From assembly GCA_000472185.1 (NCBI GenBank), contig AVDB01000001.1:310001-374000 (forward strand): DNA of 64,000 bases, in the 5' to 3' direction. This document shows positions 19,981-45,289 of this stretch, in pieces. The position numbers were made by a program, and so were the translations under genes. The stretch is from Rhodobacteraceae bacterium HIMB11. Its GTDB lineage: Bacteria; Pseudomonadota; Alphaproteobacteria; Rhodobacterales; Rhodobacteraceae. The stretch's first letter is position 1. The number at the start of each line of letters is the position of its first letter. The notes under the pieces are model-generated. The model made no database searches. It saw only the letters and a program-made list of their open reading frames with translations, and was not told the DNA's origin.

Positions 19981-19997
19981 GTTCGTTCCTTACGTCT

Positions 19998-22494: not shown

Positions 22495-22530
22495 AGCGCA
22501 ACCTTTTGGAACAAGGATCAAAAGATGGAA

Positions 22531-22552
22531 AGGCGGGGGTGGTCCCCCGCCT
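22531..22552 (-). other. Hairpin between boxB and boxA
   Basis: On the minus strand a perfect 9-base stem, AGGCGGGGG with CCCCCGCCT, and a 4-base loop begin six bases after the boxB stop. Only three T follow, so it is more likely an mRNA end stabiliser or weak attenuator than a full terminator. It may keep oxygenase subunit levels above the reductase. Confidence 0.72.
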
Positions 22553-22558
22553 AAAGAA

Positions 22559-24010: not shown

Positions 24011-24039
24011 TTCTTACTCCGAAATCAATTTCAGGGGTC

Positions 24040-25701
24040 TTAGACCCGTTCCATGTTGTAGTTTCCACGTAGACCAGTTCCGTATCGTTGCAATGCGCCG
24101 CCTTCACCGACTGCATTGGGACGGTTAAATATCCAGTTTTGCCATGCTGTCAGGCGGCCAAAAATGCGCGTTTCCATGGTTTCTGGGCCAGCGAAGCGTA
24201 AATTTGCTTCCATCCCTGTCATCGCGTCAGGAGAGAAGCTTGCGCGTTCTTCAAGGAAGATGCGGATTTCATCCTCCCAATCGATATCGTCCAATATCAT
24301 CGTAACAAGCCCGTTTTCATCGGCGTCGTCGGCCTCCATCGATTCACCGACGTGTGATTTCAGCGTGTCTATGCGCTCTGCTTCATCCAAAAAGCGGGTT
24401 TCCAAGCGGCTTAGTCCGTTACCCATTGGATACGTGCCAAAATTATCATTTGATAACGTAATTGTGGCGATTGGGCGATTATCCCCCTCAAACTCATCTT
24501 CCATCATGTAACTGCGATCAACAGCCCACAGCAATTCTGCCAATACACCTGCAAAACATGACCCATGTTCAACCTGTGCCATGAGTGAGCGAGAAGTGAC
24601 ATCAACCCGCTTCAACGTGCGTTTCCAATACTGGCGGACTTCGTTGGCAAGCCAATGGTCCGCGTTCTCTGCCAGCAACGCTTCGTGTTTCAACAACAAT
24701 TCTGGATCACCTTGGGTGCGAATGACCCACAGACCCAAGTCCATTTCATTCAGGCGCAGATGAAGGATCGCATCCTCAAATTCTCGTGCGAGACGTAGCA
24801 AATAGGCTTGATCGCCCTGCGCTTGGAATTCATCCATCGTTTTGGGCGCGGTTTGGTCAGGACCATTTAACGTAATCGTCGCGGTGCGGCCTTCGCGATC
24901 AATGGTGACCTCGACACAGGTGTAAGCAACGTTTCCCTTTTCATCAATCTCCCGTTGTAGCGGGTTCAATGTAATGCCCGCATCTACTTCAGATTTTGAG
25001 GACGCAGCCACAAATTCATTTGCGCGTTCTGCAACCTTTTCATCGAAAACGCTATTTTTGAAAACATCATCTACGAGTTTCCAGTCTTTGGCGCGCTTGC
25101 CTTTGACGCCTTCTTCTGTTGCGCAAAAAATATCGGCCAAATCGCGGCGCACTTTGCGTTTGTCTGTGACACGCGTAAGCCCGCCCGTGCCCGGCAATAC
25201 CGCCAATAACGGTACCTCTGGCAGAGCAACACTGGATTGAGAGTCATCGGTAAGCATGATATGATTGCACGCGAGCGCGAGTTCGTATCCACCCCCTGCG
25301 CAGGCTCCCTTGACCGCTGCGATGTATTTTTGGCCGCTTTCTTCCTCGGCGGCTTCGAATGCATTTCGGGTTTCATTCGTGAATTTGCAGAAATTCACCT
25401 TGTGACTGTGCGCGGCCCCGCCCAACATCCGAATATTGGCTCCTGCGCAGAACACTTTGTCCTTTGCTGAGCGCATTACAACAACTTTTACTTCGGGATG
25501 TTCGAAACGCATCCGTTGGACTATGTCGTTCAATTCAATGTCGACGCCCAAATCATATGAATTCAGTTTCAGTTGATAGCCGTCGAACAGACCGCCGTCC
25601 TCGTCAACATCCATAAACAGATTTGCGATTGCACCATCATATTCAACGCGCCAATGGCGGTAATTGTTGGGATCAACACGAAAATCGATGATCTGAGACA
25701 T
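24040..25701 (-). CDS. boxC: 2,3-epoxybenzoyl-CoA dihydrolase BoxC
   Basis: 553 residues, first gene of the box operon, after AAGGAA. Crotonase-type sequence occurs in the N-terminal half (KDKVFCAGANIRMLGG, CAGGGYELALACNHIML, LPGTGGLTRVTDKRKV) and a second divergent crotonase-like half follows, as in known BoxC. It hydrolyses the epoxide ring, yielding 3,4-dehydroadipyl-CoA semialdehyde and formate. The promoter region upstream (25702-25809) carries two GCATTATA sites that may bind BoxR. Confidence 0.94.
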   Translation of the reverse strand: MSQIIDFRVDPNNYRHWRVEYDGAIANLFMDVDEDGGLFDGYQLKLNSYDLGVDIELNDIVQRMRFEHPEVKVVVMRSAKDKVFCAGANIRMLGGAAHSHKVNFCKFTNETRNAFEAAEEESGQKYIAAVKGACAGGGYELALACNHIMLTDDSQSSVALPEVPLLAVLPGTGGLTRVTDKRKVRRDLADIFCATEEGVKGKRAKDWKLVDDVFKNSVFDEKVAERANEFVAASSKSEVDAGITLNPLQREIDEKGNVAYTCVEVTIDREGRTATITLNGPDQTAPKTMDEFQAQGDQAYLLRLAREFEDAILHLRLNEMDLGLWVIRTQGDPELLLKHEALLAENADHWLANEVRQYWKRTLKRVDVTSRSLMAQVEHGSCFAGVLAELLWAVDRSYMMEDEFEGDNRPIATITLSNDNFGTYPMGNGLSRLETRFLDEAERIDTLKSHVGESMEADDADENGLVTMILDDIDWEDEIRIFLEERASFSPDAMTGMEANLRFAGPETMETRIFGRLTAWQNWIFNRPNAVGEGGALQRYGTGLRGNYNMERV

Positions 25702-25763
25702 AACAAAGTTCCTTTATTTCTTGGGAACAAACTAAAACACCACTATGCGCGGTAAACCCAAAT

Positions 25764-25818
25764 GTTGCATTATATCGTTACAAAATACAAAAATACTAAT
25801 TAATTGGCATTATAATGC
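25764..25818. promoter_or_regulatory. Candidate BoxR operators upstream of boxC
   Basis: GCATTATA occurs at 25767-25774 and again, 40 bases on, in the perfect 12-base palindrome GCATTATAATGC at 25807-25818, which overlaps the stop codon of the DUF309 gene. Operators of the related BzdR/BoxR regulators contain TGCA elements, and TGCA occurs in both copies. The spacing and location fit repression of the boxC promoter. Assignment is by inference. Confidence 0.42.
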
Positions 25819-26226
25819 ATGTTTCGAGAACAATTTCTGAATCTCTGTGACGGCTAAAGAATCTGGAGCGCGACGACCAATTTCAGCGGACAAAGCGTTG
25901 GCCTGTGCCATGATTTTCTGCGTTGCTGTTTCGCGTTTCATGATGTGTTTTAGGTTCGCGTTTGCCAAATGAATAATGCATTGCGAGAACAAGCGTTCGA
26001 TAGAATTCTGTGCGGTATTCATCCAGATCGCTTCCAAGATTTCATGCGCCTCCCAGTGGAAGCCATGCTGCATATAGTTCAAAGCGGTATGAAATGCGGA
26101 CAGGGTTTGAAGTGTTTCAAAGTCAATAACGCTTGGGATTGATGAAATGATTTCATCAAATTGAGCTTCGTTATGGCGTTGGGTTTGGCCCGGGATATAG
26201 GCATGTGGGGGTAGCGCGTGCCGCAT
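25810..26226 (-). CDS. DUF309 domain protein
   Basis: 138 residues. The start RHALPPHAYIPGQTQRH is a recurrent N-terminus of proteobacterial DUF309 proteins, and the domain core is HWEAHEILEAIW followed by QCIIHLANANLKHIM, an all-helical His/Glu-rich unit that could hold a metal. Function is unknown for the family. It starts six bases after the alpha/beta hydrolase stop, third in the benzoate-CoA ligase operon, just before boxC. Its place suggests a helper role in benzoate use, but nothing more can be read. Confidence 0.82.
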   Translation of the reverse strand: MRHALPPHAYIPGQTQRHNEAQFDEIISSIPSVIDFETLQTLSAFHTALNYMQHGFHWEAHEILEAIWMNTAQNSIERLFSQCIIHLANANLKHIMKRETATQKIMAQANALSAEIGRRAPDSLAVTEIQKLFSKHAL

Positions 26227-26232
26227 TGCATC

Positions 26233-27015
26233 CTACCTAAATGCCATAGAAAATGCTTTGATCGCGTCTAAGACTTTTGTGGGATGTTCCAGATGCGGAC
26301 TATGCTTGCAATCCTGTAATATTTCCACGCTCACAGATACGCGCGCACTTGCCTGTATCGATTGAATTTGATGAAGCGTTCCGTATTGATCATCCGTCCC
26401 TTGAATGGCCAGAATGGGTGTAGTGATTTTCTCAATCACGCTCTGAACATCCCATGAACGAAAATCTGGGTGCAGCCAGCTTTCGTTCCATCCGTAAAAT
26501 GCATTTTCAGCATCCCGATGATATTTTCCCAGTTTTTCTGGCAGATCAGTCGTTTCAAATGCGTGCTTGGCAGCCTTGATCTGGGTGATGCCCATATCCT
26601 CTGTGAAAAAGTGCGGCGCGATCAGTGTGACACCGCTTAGTTTATCGTGTCCAAGGTCACCGGCATAAATCGCAGCGATTGTTGCCCCGTCGCTGTGCCC
26701 GATCAGTTGAAATTGGGTTGGTGACAGGTGTTCAACGATCTTTGGTAGAACGTTGATTGCTTCCAAGGTCATATAGTTTAGGGTGCGCGGCAGCTGCACT
26801 GGATCAGATGCGCCATAGCCCTGTCTGGAATATAAAAATACGCCACATCCAAGAGTTTTGGACAGCTGTTCGGGAAAATCGCGCCACAAATCAACGCAAC
26901 CTAATCCTTCATGTAACAATATTGCAGTTGGTGCATCGGAGGGGGGTGGCCCCATACAACCGTATTCCAGTTGCACGCCATCAATTCTCAAAAACCCGCG
27001 TTCGCACCAATCCAT
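26233..27015 (-). CDS. Alpha/beta fold hydrolase
   Basis: 260 residues. The nucleophile elbow is GHSDGA (Ser near residue 107); the acid is probably the Asp in IQGTDDQYG, and the catalytic His lies in DCKHSPHLEHP near the end. The oxyanion region LLHEGLGCVDLWRDFPEQL is clear. It could hydrolyse an ester, lactone or thioester. It sits five bases after the benzoate-CoA ligase gene and six before DUF309, so it probably serves the box pathway, for example on a lactone or CoA side product. Reaction not proven. Confidence 0.85.
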   Translation of the reverse strand: MDWCERGFLRIDGVQLEYGCMGPPPSDAPTAILLHEGLGCVDLWRDFPEQLSKTLGCGVFLYSRQGYGASDPVQLPRTLNYMTLEAINVLPKIVEHLSPTQFQLIGHSDGATIAAIYAGDLGHDKLSGVTLIAPHFFTEDMGITQIKAAKHAFETTDLPEKLGKYHRDAENAFYGWNESWLHPDFRSWDVQSVIEKITTPILAIQGTDDQYGTLHQIQSIQASARVSVSVEILQDCKHSPHLEHPTKVLDAIKAFSMAFR

Positions 27016-27020
27016 CGCAC

Positions 27021-28547
27021 CTAATCACGCAACTTAAATCGTTGAATTTTTCCTGTTGCGGTTTTGGGTAGGTCAGGAACGAATGTAATTTTCCGTGGGT
27101 ATTTCCACTTGCCAATTTTGTCCTGCACAAACTCTTTTATATCGCCGGCATCCGTTTCTGATTTACCTGATTGTAAAACGACAAAAGCTTGTGGTTTTTC
27201 CAAATCGTCATCATCGCGATACGGTACAACGGCGGCCTCTAACACGGCGGGGTGTTCAATGATGGCCTGCTCTACTTCAAATGGCGATAGCCAAATTCCC
27301 GATACTTTGAACATATCGTCTGTACGCCCGCAGTAGATATATCGCCCGTCAGAGGTTTGTTCATACTTATCACCGGTTCTTGTCCAATGGCCTTCAAATG
27401 TGGACTTCGATTTGTCTCTTCTATTCCAATAACTTTCTGCAGAAGATGGGCCATTCACGATCAATTCGCCAATTTCGCCCACCGTGCAATCGTTTCCATT
27501 TTCGTCGACAAGTCGAACGTCATACCCAGGAACTGCCTTACCCGATGTTCCGTACACCAAATCATTGGGGTGATTGGATAAAAAGATATGCAGCATTTCG
27601 GTGGATCCGACACCGTCAACGATGTCTGTTCCTGTCAATGAATTCCAACGTTCGCCCACTTCTCTGGGCAGCGCCTCACCCGCAGAGGTGTTGATACGTA
27701 AATTATGAACAATGTTTTCTGATCGTTGATCTAGATAAGCAAGCAACGCAGCAAACAGTGTTGGGACACCACAGAAAATAGTCGGTTTTCGGCTTTCTAG
27801 TATATCGGTGACCGCGTCGGGAGTCGGACGGTTCGTAAACAAAAGGGTTGTTGCACCAACGGACATCGGGAAACTCATCGCGTTCCCAAGTCCGTAGGCG
27901 AAGAACAATTTTGCCGCCGAGTACACGACATCATCTTCCTTTATGCCCAAAACTTGTTGACCAAAGGTATCTGATGTTGCCTGCAAACTGGCATGTAAAT
28001 GCCGCACGCCTTTGGGCAATCCTGTTGATCCAGATGAATAAAGCCAAAACGCCAATTCATCACCGCTTGCCTCAATCGGTGTCAGCGCATGCGCGTCTTT
28101 GACGAAGCTATCGAAATTTGTGGTGTTCTCTGGCGTATCACCGATTACGATTACATGGCGAATACAATCGATGTCAGCCAATGCTGGCGAAACCGTATCC
28201 CACAATTCCCTGGACACCACGACGCAAGATGGCCGGCTGTCTTCTAAAATGCCGTTGTAAATCTCTGTAGACAAAAGCGTATTTAATGGGATGGGTGTGA
28301 CACCTGCCTTTAGCGCACCCCAAAATGCTATTGGAAATTCAATTTGATCCAGAACGATCATGGCCATGCGTTCGTCGCGTCGAATATCTGCGCGGCTAAG
28401 AGCGCCTGCGAATAGTGCGCTTTGATGCGCTAAATCACCATATGATATTGATCTTTTTGCGCCGTCAACTTCTACGAACGCGGGCTTGTCGGTGCGTCCC
28501 TCGTCAATATGACGGTCCACAAAATATACAGCAGCATTGCTGTTCAT
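27021..28547 (-). CDS. bclA: Benzoate-CoA ligase family enzyme
   Basis: 508 residues from the ATG at 28547, which follows AGGGAGAT; the frame extends six codons further without a ribosome site. Adenylation motifs: WLYSSGSTGLPKGVRH (P-loop), VGSTEML, GRTDDMFKVSGIWLSPFEVE and a C-terminal PKTATGKIQRFKLR with the catalytic Lys. This matches the benzoate-CoA ligase clade. It makes benzoyl-CoA from benzoate, CoA and ATP, the substrate of BoxAB. A terminator at 28641-28687 separates it from the TRAP operon upstream. Confidence 0.9.
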   Translation of the reverse strand: MNSNAAVYFVDRHIDEGRTDKPAFVEVDGAKRSISYGDLAHQSALFAGALSRADIRRDERMAMIVLDQIEFPIAFWGALKAGVTPIPLNTLLSTEIYNGILEDSRPSCVVVSRELWDTVSPALADIDCIRHVIVIGDTPENTTNFDSFVKDAHALTPIEASGDELAFWLYSSGSTGLPKGVRHLHASLQATSDTFGQQVLGIKEDDVVYSAAKLFFAYGLGNAMSFPMSVGATTLLFTNRPTPDAVTDILESRKPTIFCGVPTLFAALLAYLDQRSENIVHNLRINTSAGEALPREVGERWNSLTGTDIVDGVGSTEMLHIFLSNHPNDLVYGTSGKAVPGYDVRLVDENGNDCTVGEIGELIVNGPSSAESYWNRRDKSKSTFEGHWTRTGDKYEQTSDGRYIYCGRTDDMFKVSGIWLSPFEVEQAIIEHPAVLEAAVVPYRDDDDLEKPQAFVVLQSGKSETDAGDIKEFVQDKIGKWKYPRKITFVPDLPKTATGKIQRFKLRD

Positions 28548-28640
28548 TTCGTATCTCCCTAGCATCGCACTTTGGTGCGTTTCTCATCATTAATTGATGA
28601 TGTTTTTCTTTATGCTAGACGCGTCAGATCGCTTAACTGG

Positions 28641-28687
28641 AAAAATTTTGCCTAAAAAGTGCGGTAAAGCTGTAATTTAGGCAAAAT
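28641..28687 (-). terminator. Terminator after the TRAP operon
   Basis: Perfect 12-base inverted repeat, ATTTTGCCTAAA at 28645-28656 and TTTAGGCAAAAT at 28676-28687, with a 19-base loop. On the minus strand the second arm runs on into TTTT. It lies 18 bases after the dctM stop and ahead of the benzoate-CoA ligase gene. An operator role for the same repeat is also possible. Confidence 0.7.
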
Positions 28688-28704
28688 AATGCAAATACCT
28701 TCGG

Positions 28705-30207
28705 CTACCATTGCACCAAGAACAGCGTGATCGCCGGAAAGGTCACCAAGAGTGCGACCCGAACTAAATCGGATGCAACGAACAGGATTACCGCCTTATA
28801 TGTTTCAATCATTGGTGTCTTGCGGTCCATCGCGTTGATAATGAACAGGTTCATCCCAACAGGTGGTGTGATTAGGCCAACCTCGACAACGATCAAAACC
28901 AGAATGCCGAACCAGATTGCGACTTGTTCTGACTCGATACGACGCGCCATGCCCTTGCTCATTCTGATATCAAGAGCGCGCATTTGTTCGCGGGTCAGCT
29001 CGGCACCATTTGCAATCGCTGTTTTGATGTTTGCTAACATGTCCCCAGTAACGGCCTCAGGGATCGCGCCGCTGTTGATTACTGCCATCGCTTTCATCGC
29101 TTGCAATTCCGCCAACGAGGTAAAGTTAAAATCGAGCGCGGTAATCACTGGGAAAAAGATTGGTATCGTCAGCAAAATCATGGACAAGCTGTCCATCAAA
29201 CAGCCAAGCAGTAGGTAAAACACTAAAATCAGGACCAGAACCATCCATGGGTTGAACCCCATTCCAACAACCCATTCTGCAATTTCCTGTGGAACTTGTG
29301 TCAGTGCCAAGAACCCGTTGTAGAATCCAGCACCGAGCACGATCAAAAAAATCATAGCAGTAGAACGTGCAGTGACTGTAAAGCTCTCGACCAGAGTGGT
29401 TCGTGTTAGACCACCGTTGAAATATGCGATCAATCCAGTACCTAACGCCCCAACGGCGGCCCCTTCAGTCGGTGTGAAAATACCGCCGTAAATACCTCCG
29501 ACAACAGCGATAAAAACAAGTAGTACTGGCCAAACTGCCGTCAGATCTTTGAAGCGTTGTATGTAAGGCACACGTTCACGAACGCCAGCAGAGTCAGGAT
29601 AAAGACGGACATAGATTGATATGACGATTACATATCCAATCGCAGCCAAGATCCCTGGCACGAAGGCGGCAAGAAACAGTTTCGCGATATTTTGTTCAGT
29701 CAAAATGGCATAGATGACCAACACAACAGACGGTGGGATCAGGATGCCAAGCGTGCCGCCAGCAGCAAGTGTTGCAGTTGAAAACCCACTAGCATAGCCA
29801 TAACGCTTCATTTCAGGCAGGGCCACGCGACTCATCGTGGCAGCAGTTGCAAGAGATGATCCGCAGATCGCCCCAAATCCAGCACATGCGCCAACGGCTG
29901 CCATGGCAACACCACCCTTGCGATGGCCCAACCACCCCTCTGCCGCTTTAAACAACGCCTGACTCATTCCACCAAGTGTCGCAAAATGTCCCATAAGCAA
30001 GAACATCGGCACAATCGAAAGCGAATAACTTGAAAACGTCGTAAACGCTTCTGATTTCATCTTAGCTAGAGGAATATCAGGTGCGCCTGTTACGATCGAA
30101 AGCCCAACAAAGCCCGTTGAAAACATGGCTAATCCAATTGGGACACGCAAGAAAATCAAGATCAACAGGATCGGGAACGAATAAAGGCCGATTTCAAGGT
30201 TGCTCAA
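28705..30207 (-). CDS. dctM: TRAP transporter, large permease (DctM family)
   Basis: 500 residues with about 12-13 hydrophobic helices. TRAP-type motifs include CAGFGAICGSSLATAATMS, the loop GTLGILIPPSVVLVIYA and LITPPVGMNLFIINAM near the end. It is the ion-coupled permease of a tripartite ATP-independent transporter. A soluble loop of about 55 residues near positions 352-420 is longer than in many DctM proteins. It overlaps dctQ by four bases. The neighbouring benzoate genes suggest an aromatic acid or related carboxylate as substrate, by inference. Confidence 0.92.
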   Translation of the reverse strand: MSNLEIGLYSFPILLILIFLRVPIGLAMFSTGFVGLSIVTGAPDIPLAKMKSEAFTTFSSYSLSIVPMFLLMGHFATLGGMSQALFKAAEGWLGHRKGGVAMAAVGACAGFGAICGSSLATAATMSRVALPEMKRYGYASGFSTATLAAGGTLGILIPPSVVLVIYAILTEQNIAKLFLAAFVPGILAAIGYVIVISIYVRLYPDSAGVRERVPYIQRFKDLTAVWPVLLVFIAVVGGIYGGIFTPTEGAAVGALGTGLIAYFNGGLTRTTLVESFTVTARSTAMIFLIVLGAGFYNGFLALTQVPQEIAEWVVGMGFNPWMVLVLILVFYLLLGCLMDSLSMILLTIPIFFPVITALDFNFTSLAELQAMKAMAVINSGAIPEAVTGDMLANIKTAIANGAELTREQMRALDIRMSKGMARRIESEQVAIWFGILVLIVVEVGLITPPVGMNLFIINAMDRKTPMIETYKAVILFVASDLVRVALLVTFPAITLFLVQW

Positions 30208-30716
30208 TGTTCCACCCCCTCTGCTTCAAGTATTTGAGCACCTGTGAGTGTTTCGTAAATGCGTGCGAATGCCGTGTAGGTTGCAACGATTGCGGCGGCA
30301 AATGCGCCAAAAACGCTAAGGGCATAGGCCCACCAAACAGGGAATTGAAGAAGGAATGTTGTTTGTCCGCGATCGAGTTTGTCAAACATCCCTTCGCGAA
30401 GTTGCCATGCTACCATGATCAACATCGCGGCAAAGAAAATTTCGATAACCGCCAACAAAAGGCGCTGAATCTTAGGGGGTAAAGAGTTTGTGAAAATGTC
30501 GACCGTCGCATGGCCAGCCGTAATTTGCGTTAGCGGAAGAAAGGCAAATATTGAAAACGCGATACCCGCTTCAACCAATTCATAGTCTCCGTTGATTGGT
30601 CCAATTCCGATTGTACGCCCAACGATAGATACGAAAATCAACAGGATAAGTGCGGAAAGCACAAGACCTCCAAGGATTGCCATGAATTTCGAGAGAGATA
30701 AGAAAAAGCGGTGCAA
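30204..30716 (-). CDS. dctQ: TRAP transporter, small permease (DctQ family)
   Basis: 170 residues with four hydrophobic helices, the usual DctQ size and shape. The start is read as TTG at 30716 with GGGGG upstream; an ATG eleven codons further in is the alternative. It is the small membrane subunit that binds DctM. The stop overlaps the dctM start (ATGA). A hairpin at 30745-30772 lies between dctP and this gene. Confidence 0.85.
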   Translation of the reverse strand: MHRFFLSLSKFMAILGGLVLSALILLIFVSIVGRTIGIGPINGDYELVEAGIAFSIFAFLPLTQITAGHATVDIFTNSLPPKIQRLLLAVIEIFFAAMLIMVAWQLREGMFDKLDRGQTTFLLQFPVWWAYALSVFGAFAAAIVATYTAFARIYETLTGAQILEAEGVEH

Positions 30717-30744
30717 AGGTGCCCCCTGGTTCTAAAATAGCACA

Positions 30745-30772
30745 CGGGCCACCAGTCATCACCAGCGGCCCG
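30745..30772 (-). other. Hairpin between dctP and dctQ
   Basis: A 12-base stem (CGGGCC outer arm perfect, three G-U pairs inside on the minus strand) with a 4-base loop lies 17 bases after the dctP stop. No long T run follows. Likely protects dctP mRNA or lowers read-through, giving more binding protein than permease. Confidence 0.65.
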
Positions 30773-30788
30773 AGAGTTTAGTTTTGGA

Positions 30789-31820
30789 TTAGTCTGCTGA
30801 GTATTCAGCCATCAATGCGCGTGCTTCGTCGATCAATGCCTGACCGTCTTTGCCCTGTGCATTCATGTCCGCAACCCATGTGTCATAGATTGGGTTCACC
30901 AATTCACGCCATTCGGATGTATCCGTAACTGTGATGATGTTGTTCCCCATTTCTTCTGCAACGGCGCGGGCCTGCCAATCAGCATCCTGTTGAGTTGAGC
31001 CAGCGAAGATTGAGAACATCAAACCAGAGTGATCATCGATCATTTCCTGAATGTCGGCTGGTAGGCTGTCAAACTTTGCTTTGTTCATCGCAAGGAAGAA
31101 CGTCAAAGTATAAAGCGCAGGGCCTTCGAACTGTGTGTGGTTTTCCACAAGCTCTGGAACCTTAAGCGCAGCTGAAACTTCCCATGGAATTGTTGTTCCA
31201 TCAATCACACCTTTTGACAGTGCTTCTGCAACCGCGGGAACGGGCATCCCAACAGGTGTTGCGCCAACGCGGGTCAGTAGGTCATTGACCAAGCGTGACC
31301 CGCCGCGAATTTTCATACCCTCTAAGTCAGCAGGTGTTTCAACTGGATCGGCAGTGTGGAACATACCAGGGCCATGTACCCAAGTGCCAAGCATTTTTAG
31401 GTCTTTGGTTTCGCCGTCTTTCATGTGGCGTTCGTGCATTTTCCAGAATGCGTATGACGCCGCATCTGCATCCTCTACCATGAACGGCAATTCAAACACT
31501 TCTGTCGTTGGGTAGCGACCTGGCGTGTACCCAACAACAACCCAACCGATATCAACGATCCCGTCTTGGACGTGGTCGATCAATTCAGGGGGTGTCCCGC
31601 CAAGTGACATAGTTGCATAACGTTCAATTTTGATACGACCGTTTGAGTTGCGCTCAAGGTTGTTCGCCCAAACGTCCAGAATTTCAACAGGCACGTTTGC
31701 GCCAGCTGGTAGAAAGTGCTCAAGCTTTAGTGTGACTTCCTGAGCGACAGCAGCGCCTGCTGTAACAACAGCAAGTGCTGCTCCGCTCATTAGTCCAAGA
31801 AAGTTCTTGCGTGTGTACAT
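30789..31820 (-). CDS. dctP: TRAP transporter, periplasmic solute-binding protein (DctP family)
   Basis: 343 residues from the ATG at 31820, which follows GGGAGGA. A signal peptide (YTRKNFLGLMSGAALAVVTA) is cleaved near AVAQ. The mature protein begins VTLKLEHFLPAGANVP, and the conserved Arg of the carboxylate pocket probably lies in GMKIRGGSRLVND near residue 180. It captures an organic acid for DctQM. The gene is first in dctPQM, 150 bases downstream of the P450 gene. A copy of the shared palindrome lies 77 bases upstream of its start. Confidence 0.92.
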   Translation of the reverse strand: MYTRKNFLGLMSGAALAVVTAGAAVAQEVTLKLEHFLPAGANVPVEILDVWANNLERNSNGRIKIERYATMSLGGTPPELIDHVQDGIVDIGWVVVGYTPGRYPTTEVFELPFMVEDADAASYAFWKMHERHMKDGETKDLKMLGTWVHGPGMFHTADPVETPADLEGMKIRGGSRLVNDLLTRVGATPVGMPVPAVAEALSKGVIDGTTIPWEVSAALKVPELVENHTQFEGPALYTLTFFLAMNKAKFDSLPADIQEMIDDHSGLMFSIFAGSTQQDADWQARAVAEEMGNNIITVTDTSEWRELVNPIYDTWVADMNAQGKDGQALIDEARALMAEYSAD

Positions 31821-31896
31821 TTTGTTTCCTCCCAAACATAAGCCACGACCGTTTTTACGTGTAATTGCACCAGTGAACGGTCAAACTAAAAATAAA

Positions 31897-33291: not shown

Positions 33292-34272
33292 ATGACCTAC
33301 ATGATCGACGGATTGCAGTACGCGAACTGGTCCGAAAAAATATTCCAGGAAATGCGTGTGGGTGCAGTGGATGCCGTTCACGTTACGATCACCTATCATG
33401 AAAACTTCCGCGAAACTGTGCATAATATTGAACGCTGGAATCGGTGGTTTGAACAATATCCCGATCTGATTTTTCACGGGCGCACCGCAGCCTGCATAAA
33501 AACTGCACGTGAGACCAACCGCACTGCGATCTTTTTCGGATCCCAAAATCCCAGCTGTATCGAAGACGATATCGGTTTGGTCGAGGTGCTGCACACCCTG
33601 GGTTTGCGGTTCATGCAATTAACTTACAACAATCAATCATTGCTTGCGACTGGGTGTTATGAACAAGACGACACGGGCCTGACGCGCATGGGCAAGGAAG
33701 TGGTGCGCGAAATGAACCGCGTGGGATTGGTTGTTGATATGAGTCATTCGGCTGAACGTTCGACGCTTGAGGCGATTGAATATTCGTCACGCCCCATCGC
33801 CATAACTCACGCCAATCCAGCATTTTGGCATCCTGCGCTGCGCAATAAATCGGATGATGTTCTACGCGCACTCGGGCAGTCGGGCGGTATGTTGGGATTT
33901 TCTCTATATCCGCATCACCTTGAAAACGGTAGCGACTGTTCGATCACATCCTTTTGTGAAATGATTGCGCGCACTGCGGACCTAATGGGCGCGGAAAACA
34001 TCGGCATTGGTACGGATTTATGTCAGGATCAACCCGACAGTATCGTTGAATGGATGCGTGTGGGGCGTTGGACAAAATCCATAGATTATGGTGAGGGCAG
34101 CGCCGATAAACCTGGTTTTCCACCCATGCCAAATTGGTTCAAAGATAATCGCGACTTTGGAAATATCAGAAACGCACTATCTGACTTGGGCATGGCACCA
34201 TCAGAAATTGATGGCGTCATGGGCGATAATTGGTATCGTTTCTTTGAAAACAACTTTGGCCCTTTGGGGTAG
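33292..34272 (+). CDS. M19 membrane dipeptidase-like protein with altered metal site
   Basis: 326 residues after GGGG. The overall pattern is M19 (renal dipeptidase): IEDDIGLVEVLHTLGLRFMQLTY, then VVDMSH and ITHANP with the two His of the second metal. The first-metal motif, normally DGHxD, is DGLQY here, so His and Asp are missing. The bridging Glu, five residues before IEDD, is Gln. A normal two-zinc dipeptidase is therefore unlikely; another hydrolase or lyase activity, or one metal, is possible. It starts a run with a 554-residue unknown protein (nine bases on) and DUF3726. Confidence 0.78.
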   Translation: MTYMIDGLQYANWSEKIFQEMRVGAVDAVHVTITYHENFRETVHNIERWNRWFEQYPDLIFHGRTAACIKTARETNRTAIFFGSQNPSCIEDDIGLVEVLHTLGLRFMQLTYNNQSLLATGCYEQDDTGLTRMGKEVVREMNRVGLVVDMSHSAERSTLEAIEYSSRPIAITHANPAFWHPALRNKSDDVLRALGQSGGMLGFSLYPHHLENGSDCSITSFCEMIARTADLMGAENIGIGTDLCQDQPDSIVEWMRVGRWTKSIDYGEGSADKPGFPPMPNWFKDNRDFGNIRNALSDLGMAPSEIDGVMGDNWYRFFENNFGPLG

Positions 34273-34281
34273 GGTTTAAAC

Positions 34282-35946
34282 ATGACGCAGCAAATTGATC
34301 ATTCGGAAACACATACTGTGGCGCTTCGCTCTCCGGCCACTGTGATGCGATTGGACAGAATGGGTGCCGCGCATCCCGTGCGATTGTCTTTTTTGCGTAT
34401 ATTGCTGCGTCGTGCGCAAAGGGAAAATTGGCAATTCACGCGAACCGAATGGAATGTGGACGATAAGGGTGTTGGCCACGCAGTGTATCAGGCACGGGGC
34501 CTCGAACGTACATATAGCCTGATTGCGTTCGCGCATGATCTACCTGATGAGCATCGCACTGATCGCGTGATTGCCACAGCTTGGGATGCGACATTTACAT
34601 TATTTGATGGCGTCCCAAGCGAAGGCGACATTCATCGACTATCCCAAAATGTGCCGCATCAAGAAGCAGGGCGAATTTCCGAGAAAGAGATTTGTCTGTC
34701 ACGTGCAAACCGCTCGGTACGGTTGTTCAATTATGTTGTCGACACGCTCAGCCAAGGTATTCAGCCAGACGCAGAAAAATTGTTCGATGTTGGATATTTG
34801 ATGCGCACGACCGCAGTTTATGGATCTGGAAAATTTGGGGCAGTTGATTATTCCGCCATCCAGCATCGCCCGGAATTACAGGCACCGTTTCAGGCAGAAA
34901 TGTTGACCGTTTGGCTTATTCGTTGGTTTGCCATTGATATTGTTAATCACATGGCAAAATGCGCGGACGCAGAACGGGCAGTGGAACTTGACCCAATGCT
35001 TGCACAGCGCTTGGGTGTTGGGAATTCAACGGGTTTGGGTATGGCTCCATTTTTGGTGCGCCACCCTGATTTAGTAAACGCATGGATCGCGACACGCGAA
35101 ACAGCATTGGCCAGAGTTCGATCGCTGAGTGCATTTGATCAGGCAACCAAAACAGGCTTTTTGTCGGCACTGGCAGAGGCCATCGAAAACGCGCAGTTGT
35201 GGAATACGTCGCACCCATTACAGGTCACGCGATTGGCAGATCTGCGAAATGATTTGTCCTTGCTTGATACATATGTGCGCACTTTTGATTGGGACGCGAA
35301 AATGCCATGGGATTGTCTGTGGTGTTGGGGAGAACAGCATCTGTCGAACGAAGGGCAAGAAGCGTTACTTTCCCTTTTCTTAGAGCCGCATGGCAGCATC
35401 ATTGATGATCTGGCGTCAAATTTATCCTCTGCGCTGGGTAAGGATAAGAAAATTGATGGCGCGATGTCGGTCGCTGAGCTTAAAGACATCCTTAATGAAT
35501 ATTTCCAGTGGGCCTTGTCGACCGATTTCCAAGATAAAGACGAAAACGCGCTATTCTGGTATGTTTCAGAAGAAAAATTGGAACCACGCATAGGCCGTGT
35601 TGGCATTGATGAAGGCCATGATTTAGAGCAGCCCTTGGGCATTGCGCGCCTGATTTCTGATTTGTCTCGTGATCTGGAATCTTGGAACAACTCTGATCCC
35701 ATTGCGGCGGTTCTTATGCGCCACCCTGAGCACAGATTGGCGGTTAAACGTGTGCAGCAGGCGCCATTTAATCCCTATGGTGAAATTCAGGATAATCTGT
35801 TGGGGAAAGATACGCTTCCCATCGACATGATGCGCTGCAAACTAGCGTTTTTTGGCGCATCGCGTTTTGATCCGCGGTCTGACAAATGGGTTCGGATTAG
35901 CCTGTTTCAGGATATGCCCTTCCCCTATCAATTGGTTCAGGAATAG
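34282..35946 (+). CDS. Conserved-looking protein of unknown function, 554 residues
   Basis: I do not recognise a family. The protein is soluble with no signal peptide or membrane helix. The N-terminal ~130 residues mix strands and helices (HPVRLSFLRILLRRAQRENW, AYSLIAFAHDL-like stretch, TAWDATFTLFDG); the rest is mostly helical, rich in Trp, Leu and Asp. Possible active residues (HEAE or Cys clusters) are not obvious. It lies nine bases after the M19-like gene and five before DUF3726, so the three are one operon and probably act together. Codon use looks like that of the neighbours. Confidence 0.72.
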   Translation: MTQQIDHSETHTVALRSPATVMRLDRMGAAHPVRLSFLRILLRRAQRENWQFTRTEWNVDDKGVGHAVYQARGLERTYSLIAFAHDLPDEHRTDRVIATAWDATFTLFDGVPSEGDIHRLSQNVPHQEAGRISEKEICLSRANRSVRLFNYVVDTLSQGIQPDAEKLFDVGYLMRTTAVYGSGKFGAVDYSAIQHRPELQAPFQAEMLTVWLIRWFAIDIVNHMAKCADAERAVELDPMLAQRLGVGNSTGLGMAPFLVRHPDLVNAWIATRETALARVRSLSAFDQATKTGFLSALAEAIENAQLWNTSHPLQVTRLADLRNDLSLLDTYVRTFDWDAKMPWDCLWCWGEQHLSNEGQEALLSLFLEPHGSIIDDLASNLSSALGKDKKIDGAMSVAELKDILNEYFQWALSTDFQDKDENALFWYVSEEKLEPRIGRVGIDEGHDLEQPLGIARLISDLSRDLESWNNSDPIAAVLMRHPEHRLAVKRVQQAPFNPYGEIQDNLLGKDTLPIDMMRCKLAFFGASRFDPRSDKWVRISLFQDMPFPYQLVQE

Positions 35947-35951
35947 CAAAC

Positions 35952-36554
35952 GTGAGTGTTGCCCTTTCACAAGGTGAAGCGACCGCAATTGTTGTTAAAG
36001 CTGCGCGTGGTTTTGGCCTAAGTTGGGGGTTGGCAGAAGAGGCGGGTTGGGCCCTTTGCCAACTGGGTCAATATGGCAATGACCCGCTTTCATGGTTTGA
36101 ACGTGCATTTAATGGGCCCGCAGAAAACTGCCCCATCACGATTGGGGCAACCTTGATGGATCATTCACCCCTTCCAAACAGCGATGCGCAACTGGGGGGT
36201 GATTTGGGTCTGATTAGAATGCCAATCCTGCTAATACCCTTTTTGCGTCAATCGGCTGAGCTGGTTGGACATAGATTGTATCTTTGCGAACAGGCCAATG
36301 AACTGCGAATTGATGTAACTGGTGATTTGGGCCGCCACATCGAACAGTTGGGTTCATTAAATATCGGTCATATTGCGATCAAGGTGGGTTCGCTCATAAA
36401 CAATGATCCACCACTTAAGCCCAAGACATGCAGGTTTCATACCTCCATGGATACGCTTACGCAGTTGGATAAGCTGGGATCACGTACTTATGTGCCGGAA
36501 ACCGAGGCATCGCGCATGTCAGGTGCGGGTGCAGGTGCGTCCGACAATGATTAG
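35952..36554 (+). CDS. DUF3726 domain protein
   Basis: 200 residues, GTG start with AGGAA inside the end of the previous gene. The segment ALSQGEATAIVVKAARGFGLSWGLAEEAGWALCQL is the N-terminal mark of DUF3726. No signal peptide or membrane helix. Family function is unknown. Its end overlaps the convergent Ldh-family gene by four bases. It is five bases from the 554-residue unknown gene, pointing to a shared role. Confidence 0.78.
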   Translation: MSVALSQGEATAIVVKAARGFGLSWGLAEEAGWALCQLGQYGNDPLSWFERAFNGPAENCPITIGATLMDHSPLPNSDAQLGGDLGLIRMPILLIPFLRQSAELVGHRLYLCEQANELRIDVTGDLGRHIEQLGSLNIGHIAIKVGSLINNDPPLKPKTCRFHTSMDTLTQLDKLGSRTYVPETEASRMSGAGAGASDND

Positions 36555-37537
36555 GTTTTATTACCCAAATCAGTGATTTTTCGCCATAACGCGTCATCGA
36601 CGTTCACGTTTGTCAGTGGATCACGTTGTGCCCCTGGGATGCGTGCGCCTTCATCTTCTGCAATCGCGTCCGCTAGTCTTTGGAACCGATCCCCAAATTG
36701 ATCACCAAAGGTGGTGGTATCCATAATGATATATGTTTGGCCCAAGCGGTGGGGTGGGCCATCTGCCAATTTCAGGCCACCAACATCCAACGAATTAACC
36801 GATCCGGTCATTGCCGATGCCATAAGTTCCGCCAATAGACCAAAACCCCAACCTTTATAACCGCCCGCACTGCATAGGGATCCTTTTAATGCGGCCTCTG
36901 GATCGTCGGTAGGTTTACCATTTTCATCGACTGCCCAGCCAAATGGAATTTTTTCACCCGCGTATTTCGCCATGGTGATCTTACCCAAGGCCACTGCAGA
37001 TGTAGAAAAATCAAAGTGCATTGCTATGCCGCATTGTCCGTTTGGAACGGAACAGGCAATAGGGTTTGTCCCAATAACCCGTGACTTACCCCCAGGTGCC
37101 GCAACCACAGGTGATGCGTTCGTGAATCCCAGCCCGATCAAACCTTGGGCTGCGATCTGTTCCGTGAAATAACCCAACGATGTGCATGTGTGACTGTTGC
37201 TAACAGAGTAAAGCGCAATGCCAGTTTCACGCGCGACGTTACAGGCGGTTTCCAACCCTTTGGCGAATGCAGGTTGTGCAAACCCCAATTGTGCATTGGA
37301 CAAAACCGAGGAGGCGCGTGGTTTGGTCACAATCGGATCGGCGCGTCCATCAACACGGCCAGAGGCCAACTGAATGCAATAACTTTCGACATATTGCAGT
37401 CCGCAGATGACATTGCCATAGGCCTCAGAATGCGCGGTGGCCTTTGCCACTTCATCCGCCTGCCATTGGGCAGCGCCATGCGCGATCAGAGCGTTTTTTG
37501 TCAGATCGAAAATTTGGTCAATATTGCGGGTTGGCAT
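36551..37537 (-). CDS. Ldh family (malate/lactate dehydrogenase type II) oxidoreductase
   Basis: 328 residues after AGGA. The family's NAD(P)H-binding and catalytic regions appear in VSNSHTCTSLGYF (catalytic His), NASPVVAAPGG, IGTNPIACSVP and FDFSTSAVALGKI. Members reduce cyclic imines (delta-1-piperideine or pyrroline-2-carboxylate) or keto acids, or oxidise ureidoglycolate. It is convergent with the M19-like/unknown/DUF3726 operon. Its own promoter is in 37538-37620. The substrate is not set; an imino acid or amino acid derivative would fit a peptidase-like neighbour. Confidence 0.83.
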   Translation of the reverse strand: MPTRNIDQIFDLTKNALIAHGAAQWQADEVAKATAHSEAYGNVICGLQYVESYCIQLASGRVDGRADPIVTKPRASSVLSNAQLGFAQPAFAKGLETACNVARETGIALYSVSNSHTCTSLGYFTEQIAAQGLIGLGFTNASPVVAAPGGKSRVIGTNPIACSVPNGQCGIAMHFDFSTSAVALGKITMAKYAGEKIPFGWAVDENGKPTDDPEAALKGSLCSAGGYKGWGFGLLAELMASAMTGSVNSLDVGGLKLADGPPHRLGQTYIIMDTTTFGDQFGDRFQRLADAIAEDEGARIPGAQRDPLTNVNVDDALWRKITDLGNKT

Positions 37538-40843: not shown

Positions 40844-41971
40844 CTATAGCAAGGGGAGTTCTTTGGGCGCGCGCGTACTTAGCAGGATGGGCACACCATC
40901 TGTGATCAGGATATTTTCCTCGGTGACCATAATGCCGCCCCCATCGACGCCGATGCTGGGCTCTAGGGTCAGAACCATGTTTTCCCGAATGATGGTTTCG
41001 TCCCAGGCGGCGAGTGATGGCCATTCGGTCAATTGCATCCCCAACCCATGACCAAAACGTCCTACGTCGGAATTTTGCGTGTCCATCGACTTTGCCATGG
41101 CGGCGAATAGATCGCAGGCCCGAACACCGGGGCGGGCCATTTCCATCGCTGCATCCGTTGCATCGTATAGTTTCGCATAGGCACGCTGCGCAGACTTTGT
41201 TGGCGTTCCAACCGCATAGTTGCGATCAAAATCGCAGAAATATCCGTTCAGCGTTGCGCCCGTGTCTAACATTAAAATTTGCCCATTGGACAAGGGTCGA
41301 TCATCGGGTGGCGAAATCACATCGTCATAGGATGGATGATCAACACCCCCAACCAAATAGGGCACATCGTCTGCACCCAGTTCCAACAACATGCGTTTGA
41401 ATTCCCGAAATACCGACGACAGCGAATGACCCGCGTTTGCGATTTCAGGAACGCGTGCAAATCCTTGGCTCGCGATCCCACAAATTTGACGGATATAGGC
41501 GATTTCACGGTCTGATTTCACCATGCGCAGGTCGCGGATGATGTCCGTCGCATCGATCCATTCTGCGGGCAATGCCGCGCGCAATTCAAACACATCATTC
41601 AATGGCATGCGGAATGTGGTTTCGTGCCCCATCAACACGCCTAAACGCTGACAATTACCGAGCCGATCCTTCAATAGGGATAGGCCGTCATCATGCGGGC
41701 GCGGTGCGGGCCATGCCTCAATCTCGGCGATGTCTGAACGTGCCATCAGCTCGGCACCAATTTCGGGAATGATCGCCAATGGCGTTTGATCGCGCCGCAA
41801 AATCACAAACCATGGGCGTGTGGGGCTTTGCCAGAACTGTGTGCGAAATCCCGTGAAATAGCGGACCTCGGCCTCGCTTGCCAGCAATATGGCGTCAAGG
41901 CTGTTTGCGTGCATTGCACGGTTCGCGGTCTCTAGGCGTGCTTCGTATTCTGCGCGCGGGAAATCAGTCAT
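40844..41971 (-). CDS. M24 family metallopeptidase (Xaa-Pro peptidase/ectoine hydrolase-like)
   Basis: 375 residues with an N-terminal creatinase-like domain (~1-150) and a C-terminal pita-bread domain. Metal ligands: Asp in LDTGA and CDFDRN, His in FGHGLGMQLTEWP, Glu in LEPSI and in TEENIL. Such enzymes hydrolyse Xaa-Pro peptides, creatine or the ectoine ring. It overlaps the preceding PLP lyase gene by eight bases. DoeA/EutD-type roles occur in gene clusters with a PLP enzyme and a racemase like the one across the promoter, but the other eut genes are absent here. Confidence 0.85.
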   Translation of the reverse strand: MTDFPRAEYEARLETANRAMHANSLDAILLASEAEVRYFTGFRTQFWQSPTRPWFVILRRDQTPLAIIPEIGAELMARSDIAEIEAWPAPRPHDDGLSLLKDRLGNCQRLGVLMGHETTFRMPLNDVFELRAALPAEWIDATDIIRDLRMVKSDREIAYIRQICGIASQGFARVPEIANAGHSLSSVFREFKRMLLELGADDVPYLVGGVDHPSYDDVISPPDDRPLSNGQILMLDTGATLNGYFCDFDRNYAVGTPTKSAQRAYAKLYDATDAAMEMARPGVRACDLFAAMAKSMDTQNSDVGRFGHGLGMQLTEWPSLAAWDETIIRENMVLTLEPSIGVDGGGIMVTEENILITDGVPILLSTRAPKELPLL

Positions 41972-43028
41972 TCACGGCCCCTTCGGAAACAATACACATC
42001 ACACGGGATGTTGCGTTCAGACCAAATTCACCCTGCGATGCACCAATCAACGCTGCCGCTAAACCCGCCCCGCCAGACGGGCTGGTGGCCAAGCCTAGTT
42101 CGGCCAATCGCGGTAATTGATTTTCTACATCTTCATCCGTCAGGGTCGTGAAATCGTTGGCATGTCGGGCCAATGCATCAAGTGCGGACAAAGAGGCCCG
42201 TTTACAATCCAATCGTCCCATGCTGGACACACCTTCGCCCGCATCACACAAGGCACCCAATTGCACCGCTGCCTGAAGGGCAGGTGCGCGGTCAGGTTCA
42301 ACAACAATGATCCGCAAATCTGGACCATACGCCTCGCGCAGATATAGCGCCATGGCCGCGGCCAATCCGCCAACGCCCGCTTGCAAAAATAAATGTGTTG
42401 GCGGTTCTGGGCACTGTTCCACAATCTCTTTCGCGGACAGCATGTAACCCTTCATCACATCTGCACCCACCGCATATCCGGGCCAGGTGGAATCGGACAA
42501 TAAAAACCAACCATTTTCCTTGGCTGCTTGTTCGGCTGCCGACATGCTGGCCTCATAATCGACACCCTCAACCACGACATCGGCACCGATTGAACGCAGC
42601 TTTTCTTGGAAACTGGCGGGGACTGTTTCGGCCAGATAAATCACCGCTTTGGCGCCAAATGCATTTGCGCCTGCCACAACGGATAAACCATGATTGCCCG
42701 CGCTGGCGGTAACAAAGGTCATGTCTGATAGTACATTTTCAAAACCGTCGTTTTTGGCGCGGTCTTGGGCGATGGTCGCGATGACAGATGCCGCGCCCAA
42801 TGCTTTAAAACTACCCAATCCCATCCGCGTGCGTTCATCTTTGACATACAAGGCGCTAATTTCGATTTGGGCCGCGTTCGTATCTATCGAATGCAGCGGT
42901 GTTTTGTCCGCTTTGGGACATATGGCGTAAAGGTGTCCAAGCGCTTCAATCTCGGTTGTCAGTTTCACCGCCTCGGGTAAATCAAGGCCAGTTCCAATAT
43001 GCGGGTTTTGTATGTTTATCAGGGTCAT
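41964..43028 (-). CDS. Diaminopropionate ammonia-lyase-like PLP enzyme
   Basis: 354 residues from the ATG at 43028 (no strong ribosome site; a TTG at 43064 also lies in frame). The PLP lysine is in GLGSFKALGAASV, and SAGNHGLSVV follows, the phosphate-binding loop of fold-type II enzymes; VEPDRAPALQ and AGVGGLAAAM are also present. It resembles diaminopropionate ammonia-lyase, which removes both amino groups from 2,3-diaminopropionate, but threonine dehydratase-like activity is possible. First gene of a four-gene operon with M24, a dioxygenase-like gene and DUF1330. Confidence 0.8.
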   Translation of the reverse strand: MTLINIQNPHIGTGLDLPEAVKLTTEIEALGHLYAICPKADKTPLHSIDTNAAQIEISALYVKDERTRMGLGSFKALGAASVIATIAQDRAKNDGFENVLSDMTFVTASAGNHGLSVVAGANAFGAKAVIYLAETVPASFQEKLRSIGADVVVEGVDYEASMSAAEQAAKENGWFLLSDSTWPGYAVGADVMKGYMLSAKEIVEQCPEPPTHLFLQAGVGGLAAAMALYLREAYGPDLRIIVVEPDRAPALQAAVQLGALCDAGEGVSSMGRLDCKRASLSALDALARHANDFTTLTDEDVENQLPRLAELGLATSPSGGAGLAAALIGASQGEFGLNATSRVMCIVSEGAVND

Positions 43029-43122
43029 ATTTGCAGCATGGTCAAAAATATTTTCAACCGTCAAGCGGGTTTACACACACCTGAAACCTGAATAGCGTTT
43101 TCGCAAAAGACAGGGATCGAAC

Positions 43123-43860
43123 ATGACGGCCTTTCCATTTGACACAAATCCGAATGAACCGACAAAACTGGGCCTGATCGTCCTAAGTTCAGACGAAACA
43201 ATCGAGGATGAGTTTCGCGCGATGCTGCCGAAATCATGTTCCCTGTTTCAAACGCGCATTCATTCCGCACCCGAAGTGACGCCAGATACGCTCATGGAAA
43301 TGAAAGCGGGACTTGCCACATCGGCGGCGATGATCCCGCCCAGTTTTGATGTGGATGTCATCGGATATGCCTGTACATCGGGGGCCACAATGATTGGCCC
43401 CAGCAATGTCGCGACCGAGGTGCAAAAGGTGCATCCAAATTCACAGGTTTGCACGCCAATCACGGCAGTAATGCGTGCGCTGAATACTCTGGGTGCGAGA
43501 AAAATTGGGATGGTGACACCCTATATCCGAGATGTCAGCCAAGAGATGCGCAATTTGTTGATCGAAAACGGATTTGAAATTTCCGCACTGGTTTCATTTG
43601 AGGTCAGCACCGAAGCCATTGTTGCACGCATCACCGCAGATGCGATTAAACGCGCAGTGCGCGCCGCAGCAGTCGATGGGGCAGATGCGGTTTTTGTATC
43701 CTGCACGAATTTGCGAACCGTGGATGTGATTGACGAGTTGGAAGATGAACTGGGGATTGCAATCGTCACGTCAAATCAGGCGCTGGCGTGGGACATGCTG
43801 ACATCCGCGGGTATTTCAGCGGTGCAGTCTGCGGTGCCGGGTCGGTTGTCAAAAATCTAG
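43123..43860 (+). CDS. Asp/Glu racemase-fold protein (maleate isomerase/EutA-like)
   Basis: 245 residues. Two Cys in the right setting for this fold: GYACTSGATMIGP (near residue 87) and FVSCTNLRTVDV (near residue 194). This pair is used by racemases, maleate isomerases and arylmalonate decarboxylases, and by EutA of ectoine gene sets. It is divergent from the PLP lyase/M24 operon with a 94-base gap, so the two sides probably share regulation and substrate. Reaction not set. Confidence 0.8.
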   Translation: MTAFPFDTNPNEPTKLGLIVLSSDETIEDEFRAMLPKSCSLFQTRIHSAPEVTPDTLMEMKAGLATSAAMIPPSFDVDVIGYACTSGATMIGPSNVATEVQKVHPNSQVCTPITAVMRALNTLGARKIGMVTPYIRDVSQEMRNLLIENGFEISALVSFEVSTEAIVARITADAIKRAVRAAAVDGADAVFVSCTNLRTVDVIDELEDELGIAIVTSNQALAWDMLTSAGISAVQSAVPGRLSKI

Positions 43861-44140: not shown

Positions 44141-45289
44141 CTATGTCGCGATCAGTTCCTCGACAACCAGATTGAACCGATTAAGCGCCCCTTCGAACCG
44201 ACCGAACAGATGGCTTGGGTTTCCTTTTGAGGCGAACCCCGCCTGAACCTCTTCACCTAATACAAAATCTTCCATCAGCGCGGTTACGGTGATGCGTTGG
44301 TTTTTATCCCAATAGGCCTGCTTTTCCTCTGTTTGGGGTTCATCACGATGGGCCAATGTTGCCATGCGAACGCGCGTTTCATTGAACGATAGTGGTTCAT
44401 AATGAAACAGCATCACGTGATCCTGCTGGACCAACATCTGTACGTTGGGAACCAGCGTATACAACAGGTTTGCATCCTGCCGAATGGCCCAGTTTTCTTG
44501 GGGTATTTTGTGTAATTCGGGCATTGAGATACGCGGCAACACGGCACGCATATGTGTTTCGAATTGGCGGTAGGTTAGCAGATTATCGGGGAAATAGGGG
44601 GCAATCGTGTCTTTATGTGCGATGCGAAAATGATAGGCCTCTAACCCGCCTTCAAACAGCACTTTCCAGTTCGCTTTGATGGTCTTTGTTTCCAGAGCCA
44701 TGATTTTATGTTTGTCCAACTCTAGCCAGTTGAAATCATCCGCCAATCCACCCAGCCATTGATCGATATTGGGAATATCGGCGGCATCAGGATTTGCAAT
44801 GATCCAGATAAAACCATGCGCCTCGGCACAGGGTAGGCGTCGTAGGCCCCGTTCAGCGCGTGCTAGATCGGGGAAACCTTGTGCCTCTTGTGTGACGCCG
44901 CGTAGATCGCCTTGGTTCGTCCAACTCCAACCGTGATATGGGCATGTAAAAACGCGTTTGCACCCTGTGACGGAGCGTTCAACCTTGGCGCCGCGGTGCC
45001 GACACACGTTTAGAAAGGCATTCACGTCGCCCGCTTCATTTCGCGTCAAAAGTAGGGGTAGGCCTATAAAATCGCGCGCGATAAACGAATTTTTCCCAAC
45101 CAATTCCGAACTATGCGCTGCCACAACGGGTTTGCGGCGAAAAATCATGGCCTGTTCACGTTCAAATCGTTCGGGGCTTGAATATCGGGAAATTGGTGAA
45201 TGCGCGATTGTTTCATCCAAAAAGGTTGATTTCTGTTCGGCCAATCCAATGATTTCCTGAATCAGTTTTATTTCGGTTTGACGGTCCAT
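44141..45289 (-). CDS. Aromatic ring-hydroxylating oxygenase, Rieske alpha subunit (second)
   Basis: 382 residues after AAGGAGG. Rieske ligands C96, H98, C116, H119, at the same positions as in the protein at 16765. The mononuclear iron region is FEGGLEAYHFRIAH. It shares segments such as VAAHSSEL, AFLNVCRHRGAKVE and DFVLGEEVQ with that paralogue. No electron-transfer partner gene is adjacent. It is divergent from a TetR gene, and the gap contains an 18-base operator-like repeat, so TetR repression is likely. Confidence 0.88.
   Translation of the reverse strand: MDRQTEIKLIQEIIGLAEQKSTFLDETIAHSPISRYSSPERFEREQAMIFRRKPVVAAHSSELVGKNSFIARDFIGLPLLLTRNEAGDVNAFLNVCRHRGAKVERSVTGCKRVFTCPYHGWSWTNQGDLRGVTQEAQGFPDLARAERGLRRLPCAEAHGFIWIIANPDAADIPNIDQWLGGLADDFNWLELDKHKIMALETKTIKANWKVLFEGGLEAYHFRIAHKDTIAPYFPDNLLTYRQFETHMRAVLPRISMPELHKIPQENWAIRQDANLLYTLVPNVQMLVQQDHVMLFHYEPLSFNETRVRMATLAHRDEPQTEEKQAYWDKNQRITVTALMEDFVLGEEVQAGFASKGNPSHLFGRFEGALNRFNLVVEELIAT

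Follow-up and report, generated by a model that had tools for sequence, protein, structure and literature searches.

Canonical M19 proteins, among them the human renal dipeptidase (1ITQ) and M19 proteins of the Rhodobacteraceae, have at their metal centre the residues His20, Asp22, Glu125, His198, His219, Arg230 and the catalytic Asp288 (numbering of the human enzyme). The M19-like protein described here, encoded in a 64,000-nucleotide stretch of DNA from Rhodobacteraceae bacterium HIMB11 (the whole of which is called the window), belongs to the same fold family and shares with them the second-site His pair and the equivalents of Arg230 and Asp288, but differs in that His20, Asp22 and Glu125 are replaced and in that it carries an additional Trp/Arg insertion. 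Its best match in the PDB is 2I5G ('amidohydrolase'), which we take to be Pseudomonas PA5396 and also the product of the dipeptidase gene next to dgcAB. The alignment of the two proteins covers residues 3-322. Like the window protein, 2I5G shows the first-site replacement, with IDGL at the position of the DGHxD motif and Gln for the bridging Glu, and has both second-site His residues; unlike it, 2I5G has Ile and not Tyr after DGL. If it is indeed PA5396, its gene adjoins dgcAB and not the orphan gene, here termed P554, that accompanies the M19-like gene of the window (PMC12093977 for the locus). Literature searches for 2I5G, PA5396 and PA5397 found nothing.

The dimethylglycine demethylation genes dgcAB of Pseudomonas and Vibrio natriegens are preceded by a dipeptidase gene and by one annotated as hypothetical, both of which lie in a betaine catabolic cluster with a BCCT transporter gene nearby (PMC12093977). 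The window differs in having P554 and a DUF3726 gene instead, and neither DgcA/DgcB nor a flavin/Fe-S demethylase was found among the window neighbours scanned with Pfam. The hydroxyproline (hyp) cluster was considered as a source of the M19 and orphan genes (hypY, hypX, hypZ) and rejected, as hypY is an epimerase and hypX a citrate isomerase (PMC5343134); in addition, the P554 locus of Sinorhizobium meliloti is a different cluster.

Results

Organisation of the locus

The genes under study are arranged in the window as follows.

33292..34272, plus strand: M19-like protein, 326 aa; Pfam Peptidase_M19
34282..35946, plus strand: P554 (orphan protein family), 554 aa; no Pfam family
35952..36554, plus strand: DUF3726 protein, 200 aa, GTG start; Pfam DUF3726
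36551..37537, minus strand (convergent): Ldh_2 family dehydrogenase, 328 aa; Pfam Ldh_2

The Pfam matches are to Peptidase_M19 (PF01244; 1.2e-71; 242 bits against a cut-off of 26), to Ldh_2 (1.7e-78; 264.5 bits) and to DUF3726 (PF12525; 8.1e-8; 32.5 bits, cut-off 22.1). The tight linkage described in the earlier note is borne out by the coordinates of the reading frames, with gaps of 9 bases between the M19-like and P554 genes and of 5 bases between P554 and the DUF3726 gene, and the convergent Ldh_2 gene overlaps the stop of the latter by 4 bases.

Loss of the first metal site

Ligand positions were mapped by alignment to human renal dipeptidase. The human spacing 198-219-230-288 recurs as 152-173-184-242 in the window protein, which retains His152, His173, Arg184 and Asp242 as the equivalents of His198, His219, Arg230 and Asp288 and has Leu8, Tyr10 and Gln85 in place of His20, Asp22 and Glu125. 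The alignment thereby confirms what had been read from the letters alone, namely that DGHxD has become DGLQY, that the bridging Glu is Gln, and that the later His residues remain, those of VVDMSH (His152) and ITHANP (His173) aligning with the second-site pair. Gln85, His152, His173, Arg184 and Asp242 are invariant in 46 P554-linked homologues and L-Q-Y is retained in 43-44 of them; the exception at the second site is one Shinella copy with Asp in place of His152. The 46 homologues contain no invariant His beyond the second-site pair that could rebuild the first site. Two acidic residues of the P554-linked clade, Glu124 and Asp127, are invariant there but not in canonical M19 members.

Intact M19 proteins of the same bacterial family have H, D and E at the first-site positions, and a phylogenetic tree separates intact M19 from all non-canonical M19 proteins with support of 96/93. 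The window protein shows the traits of the non-canonical (2I5G-type) clade, with Leu for His20, Gln for Glu125 and Tyr for His152 (human numbering), and its invariant Trp254, Arg256 and Trp260 fall into a gap of canonical M19, forming a clade-specific insertion. Because of the invariant columns, the split in the tree, the example of 2I5G and the Trp/Arg insertion, we conclude that the first site has been lost across the clade and that its replacement is under constraint; the loss is an invariant family trait and not decay. The missing site noticed in the earlier note is real but not specific to this protein, since the entire clade including 2I5G is without it. Further M19 homologues that have neither the first metal site nor a P554 partner (DGLN, DGLS and DGLQT types) occur at loci L144, L146 and L142, with two of them at L144.

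P554, DUF3726 and Ldh_2

P554 has no match in Pfam, NCBIfam, PHROGs or the PDB. Profile searches with 37 homologues, across which 36 columns are invariant, many of them Arg, recovered no known family and only chance hits in the PDB, and no relatives were found in viral contigs. With an identity of about 50% as compared to about 70-75% for the M19-like protein, P554 is the more variable of the two, and the M19-like protein is the most conserved member of the set. AlphaFold models of the M19-like protein (pLDDT 47) and of P554 (pLDDT 44), each built from few input sequences, were too poor for fold searches. In Mesorhizobium, P554 is fused to DUF3726. A bin labelled Crocinitomicaceae (L036) holds a P554 gene product 94% identical to that of the window, probably on a misbinned contig.

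The DUF3726 protein carries a conserved tail, EASRxxGAGAGxxDND. Residues 3-135 of a gammaproteobacterial DUF3726 protein (L121:10551-11315) match positions 1-137 of Ldh_2 with an E value of 1e-9 (38.5 bits, just below the cut-off of 38.8), and comparison of the DUF3726 and Ldh_2 profiles gave an hhalign probability of 85-89%. The window protein itself has no Ldh_2 match in Pfam, and a search of the PDB with the DUF3726 profile returned chance hits only. At the sequence level the DUF3726 family appears to resemble the N-terminal part of Ldh_2, and we infer that it may be a reduced Ldh_2-like domain acting with P554. Searches found no paper on DUF3726.

The closest solved relative of the operon Ldh_2 proteins is a reductase of cyclic 2-imino acids, the delta1-piperideine/pyrroline-2-carboxylate reductase of the Ldh_2 family (1WTJ, 2CWH). 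Unlike this enzyme, the window protein and four close relatives have ICG where others have SHG, the His of which presumably acts in the active site. The exchange suggests an altered chemistry of these five proteins.

Conservation of the gene set

In a survey of 199 Rhodobacteraceae genomes, P554 was found in 92, DUF3726 in 84 and a close M19-like protein in 93. The neighbourhood picked out in the earlier note is conserved: M19-like protein and P554 occur together in 91 of the 94 genomes holding either (Fisher p ~2e-53, uncorrected for relatedness), and in the single genome with P554 and no close M19-like match the P554 gene lies at a contig edge. A sample of 398 genomes of the phylum yielded P554 in 29, Gammaproteobacteria among them, and plasmid records add Sinorhizobium, Aminobacter, Mesorhizobium, Vibrio, Caballeronia and Variovorax, the gene set being present in Alpha-, Beta- and Gammaproteobacteria. 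Distant relatives keep P554, a DUF3726-like gene and the M19-like gene, in this order, and the triad therefore is the core of the set.

The fuller operon of relatives

In its fuller form, seen in many genomes, the operon comprises genes for a LysR regulator, RidA, an aldehyde dehydrogenase, the M19-like protein, a BCCT or ProU-type transporter, P554, DUF3726 and Ldh_2. The order LysR, aldehyde dehydrogenase, M19-like, BCCT, P554, DUF3726 and Ldh_2 is annotated in Ruegeria TM1040 and Tritonibacter; Aminobacter and Shinella have the same operon with glycine betaine ABC transporters, and Vibrio-like genomes have RidA, aldehyde dehydrogenase, M19-like, BCCT, P554 and DUF3726. Among 66 P554 loci, an M19-like gene lies within 10 kb in 61 and the operon aldehyde dehydrogenase is present in 34. 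A BCCT or OpuAC gene lies within 10 kb in 25 of these 34, as compared to an expected share of about 2% (20 kb span, ~1.1 BCCT and 2.7 OpuAC genes per genome of ~4 Mb). This count includes BCCT and OpuAC matches only, generic ABC ATPase matches having been excluded as inflating, and since the loci, though chosen by P554 and not by transporter, are related to each other, no p-value is given for the enrichment.

The closest NCBIfam models of the operon aldehyde dehydrogenase are 2-oxoglutarate semialdehyde dehydrogenases, with scores below cut-off. A heterotetrameric sarcosine oxidase adjoins the operon in four loci, and the Mesorhizobium locus contains a GcvT-type FAD oxidoreductase and a gene of the trimethylamine methyltransferase family. 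The glycine betaine pocket of BCCT transporters is formed by Trp-Trp-Tyr in TM4 and Trp-Trp-Trp in TM8 (PMC12093977). In most of eight operon BCCTs, the rest being similar, TM4 reads HWGFLAWAIL (Tyr to Leu) and TM8 FFWGWFMGYGP (Trp to Phe, Trp to Tyr), with the register set by eye. As the operon BCCT of the relatives is without the Tyr and two Trp of this pocket, it probably carries a solute other than glycine betaine.

Surroundings of the core in this genome

Only the core triad and the convergent Ldh_2 gene remain together in this genome. No operon-type aldehyde dehydrogenase gene lies nearby in the window, the best match anywhere in the genome reaching 38%, and the genome has no BCCT; the core is thus either reduced or relies on other genes. 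Two gene groups flank it.

17905-31835: aerobic benzoate (box) cluster, in which BoxB, BoxC and benzoate-CoA ligase exceed their NCBIfam cut-offs
40844-43860: M24, PALP (diaminopropionate ammonia-lyase-like) and EutA-like genes, all of which score under their cut-offs

The box cluster, whose region also holds an HTH plus shikimate-kinase type regulator and a TRAP transporter, is unrelated to the core. The upstream P450 and TRAP genes were rejected as operon members; they are part of the box cluster or flank it, and their position next to the set is not conserved in other genera. Past the Ldh_2 gene, at a distance of 3-6 kb, lies the EutA-like/PALP/M24 group; in L049 and L075, from two other genera, it is contiguous with the core, to which it is possibly linked in function. 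Such genes, reminiscent of eutA/eutB/eutD of ectoine utilisation, are found close to the operon in four loci, that of the window among them, but all likenesses are below NCBIfam cut-offs (EutA 175.7 against 318) and neither EutE nor EutC was found among the scanned neighbours. Further on, at 44141-45289, the window encodes a Rieske oxygenase with weak likeness to the glycine betaine monooxygenase GbcA (101.8 bits against a cut-off of 670).

Discussion

The M19-like protein, P554 and the DUF3726 protein are a real and conserved gene set that is undescribed as far as our searches show. With moderate confidence, we propose that this triad forms the core of a conserved operon that serves to catabolise an imported zwitterion, namely a betaine-like, N-methylated solute. 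Breakdown of such a solute fits because the operon provides for uptake of a zwitterion, oxidation of an aldehyde, handling of imines and interconversion of 2-imino and 2-oxo acids. The undescribed small-molecule pathway suggested in the earlier note is hence supported by the transporters and oxidoreductases of the operon, and the amino acid derivatives it had envisaged as substrates may be narrowed to betaine-like zwitterions.

How might the core act on such a solute? The M19-like barrel would no longer function as a two-zinc dipeptidase. Since Tyr and Gln replace metal ligands and Trp and Arg have been added, the freed first-metal pocket (Tyr10, Tyr112, Gln85) together with Trp254, Arg256, Trp260 and Trp282 of the insertion may bind the quaternary ammonium and the carboxylate of the substrate, while His152, His173 and Asp242 would hold at most one metal or serve in acid-base catalysis. 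The M19-like protein, P554 and the DUF3726 protein, probably in one complex, would then cleave a C-N bond or remove an N-alkyl group, a step for which the core is the candidate because gammaproteobacterial operons have no other enzyme for C-N cleavage. The resulting aldehyde would be oxidised by the operon aldehyde dehydrogenase, RidA would clear imines, and Ldh_2 would interconvert a 2-imino and 2-oxo, or 2-hydroxy, acid. That the three proteins form a new kind of enzyme complex that cleaves C-N bonds of quaternary ammonium compounds or removes their N-alkyl groups, with the first zinc site of a dipeptidase fold exchanged for an aromatic pocket that binds cations and a dehydrogenase domain reduced to a helper subunit, is a tentative elaboration that we consider rather unlikely in this form. 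As to the substrate, the similarities of Ldh_2 and of the aldehyde dehydrogenase, the models being below cut-off, give a hint of a cyclic imino acid, for instance proline betaine or pipecolate betaine; a carnitine-like compound that undergoes C-N cleavage is just as possible.

Might the M19-like protein instead have remained a hydrolase? In the manner of mononuclear amidohydrolases, it could use a single metal at the second site to cut an amide, linear or cyclic, in a compatible solute, P554 and DUF3726 serving as partner or accessory proteins. The invariance in the 46 homologues of the residues equivalent to His198, His219, Arg230 and Asp288, which are common to canonical M19, speaks for such an activity, as do the relatives of ectoine utilisation genes (M24, PALP, EutA-like) beside the operon in four loci including the window. 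Yet Gln, which is a weaker ligand, invariably takes the place of the bridging Glu, and the Shinella copy has Asp for the first second-site His, and we regard this explanation as possible but doubtful. A clearly less probable reading makes the M19-like protein a pseudoenzyme that binds or scaffolds without catalysing and leaves the chemistry to P554, to which DUF3726 might contribute a shrunken, Ldh_2-like cofactor domain. Both the M19-like protein and DUF3726 do resemble reduced enzymes, and P554 has its many invariant, often Arg, columns and its fusion to DUF3726 in Mesorhizobium; but the M19-like protein is the most conserved member and has invariant His, Asp and Glu residues, which is unusual in a scaffold. 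Finally, an ordinary M19 dipeptidase in peptide or amino acid salvage, already judged unlikely in the earlier note, is highly improbable, for despite the strong Pfam score and although Glu124 and Asp127 could in principle serve as shifted carboxylate ligands, only the second-site pair is invariant among His residues, and the usual transporters of the operon are of the betaine family and not peptide transporters.

The Rhodobacteraceae are a major group of marine heterotrophs, and about half of those sampled carry a set of which one partner (P554) belongs to no named family and another (DUF3726) has a DUF number only. If the operon does degrade a betaine-like solute, it would be a hitherto unknown route by which carbon and nitrogen are turned over in the sea. 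It would also provide a substrate for a clade of M19 look-alikes that are currently annotated as dipeptidases, and show a binuclear metal site rebuilt for another use. The core reaction may extend beyond betaines, because in a second set of Rhodobacteraceae loci the M19-like and P554 genes adjoin housekeeping genes, with neither aldehyde dehydrogenase nor transporter, and because distant relatives adjoin polyamine-type ABC transporters and aminotransferases.

Close M19-like proteins (~70%) also occur in two genomes without P554, L151 and L152, the gene in L152 being accompanied by those for LysR, a TRAP-like transporter and a RidA-like protein.
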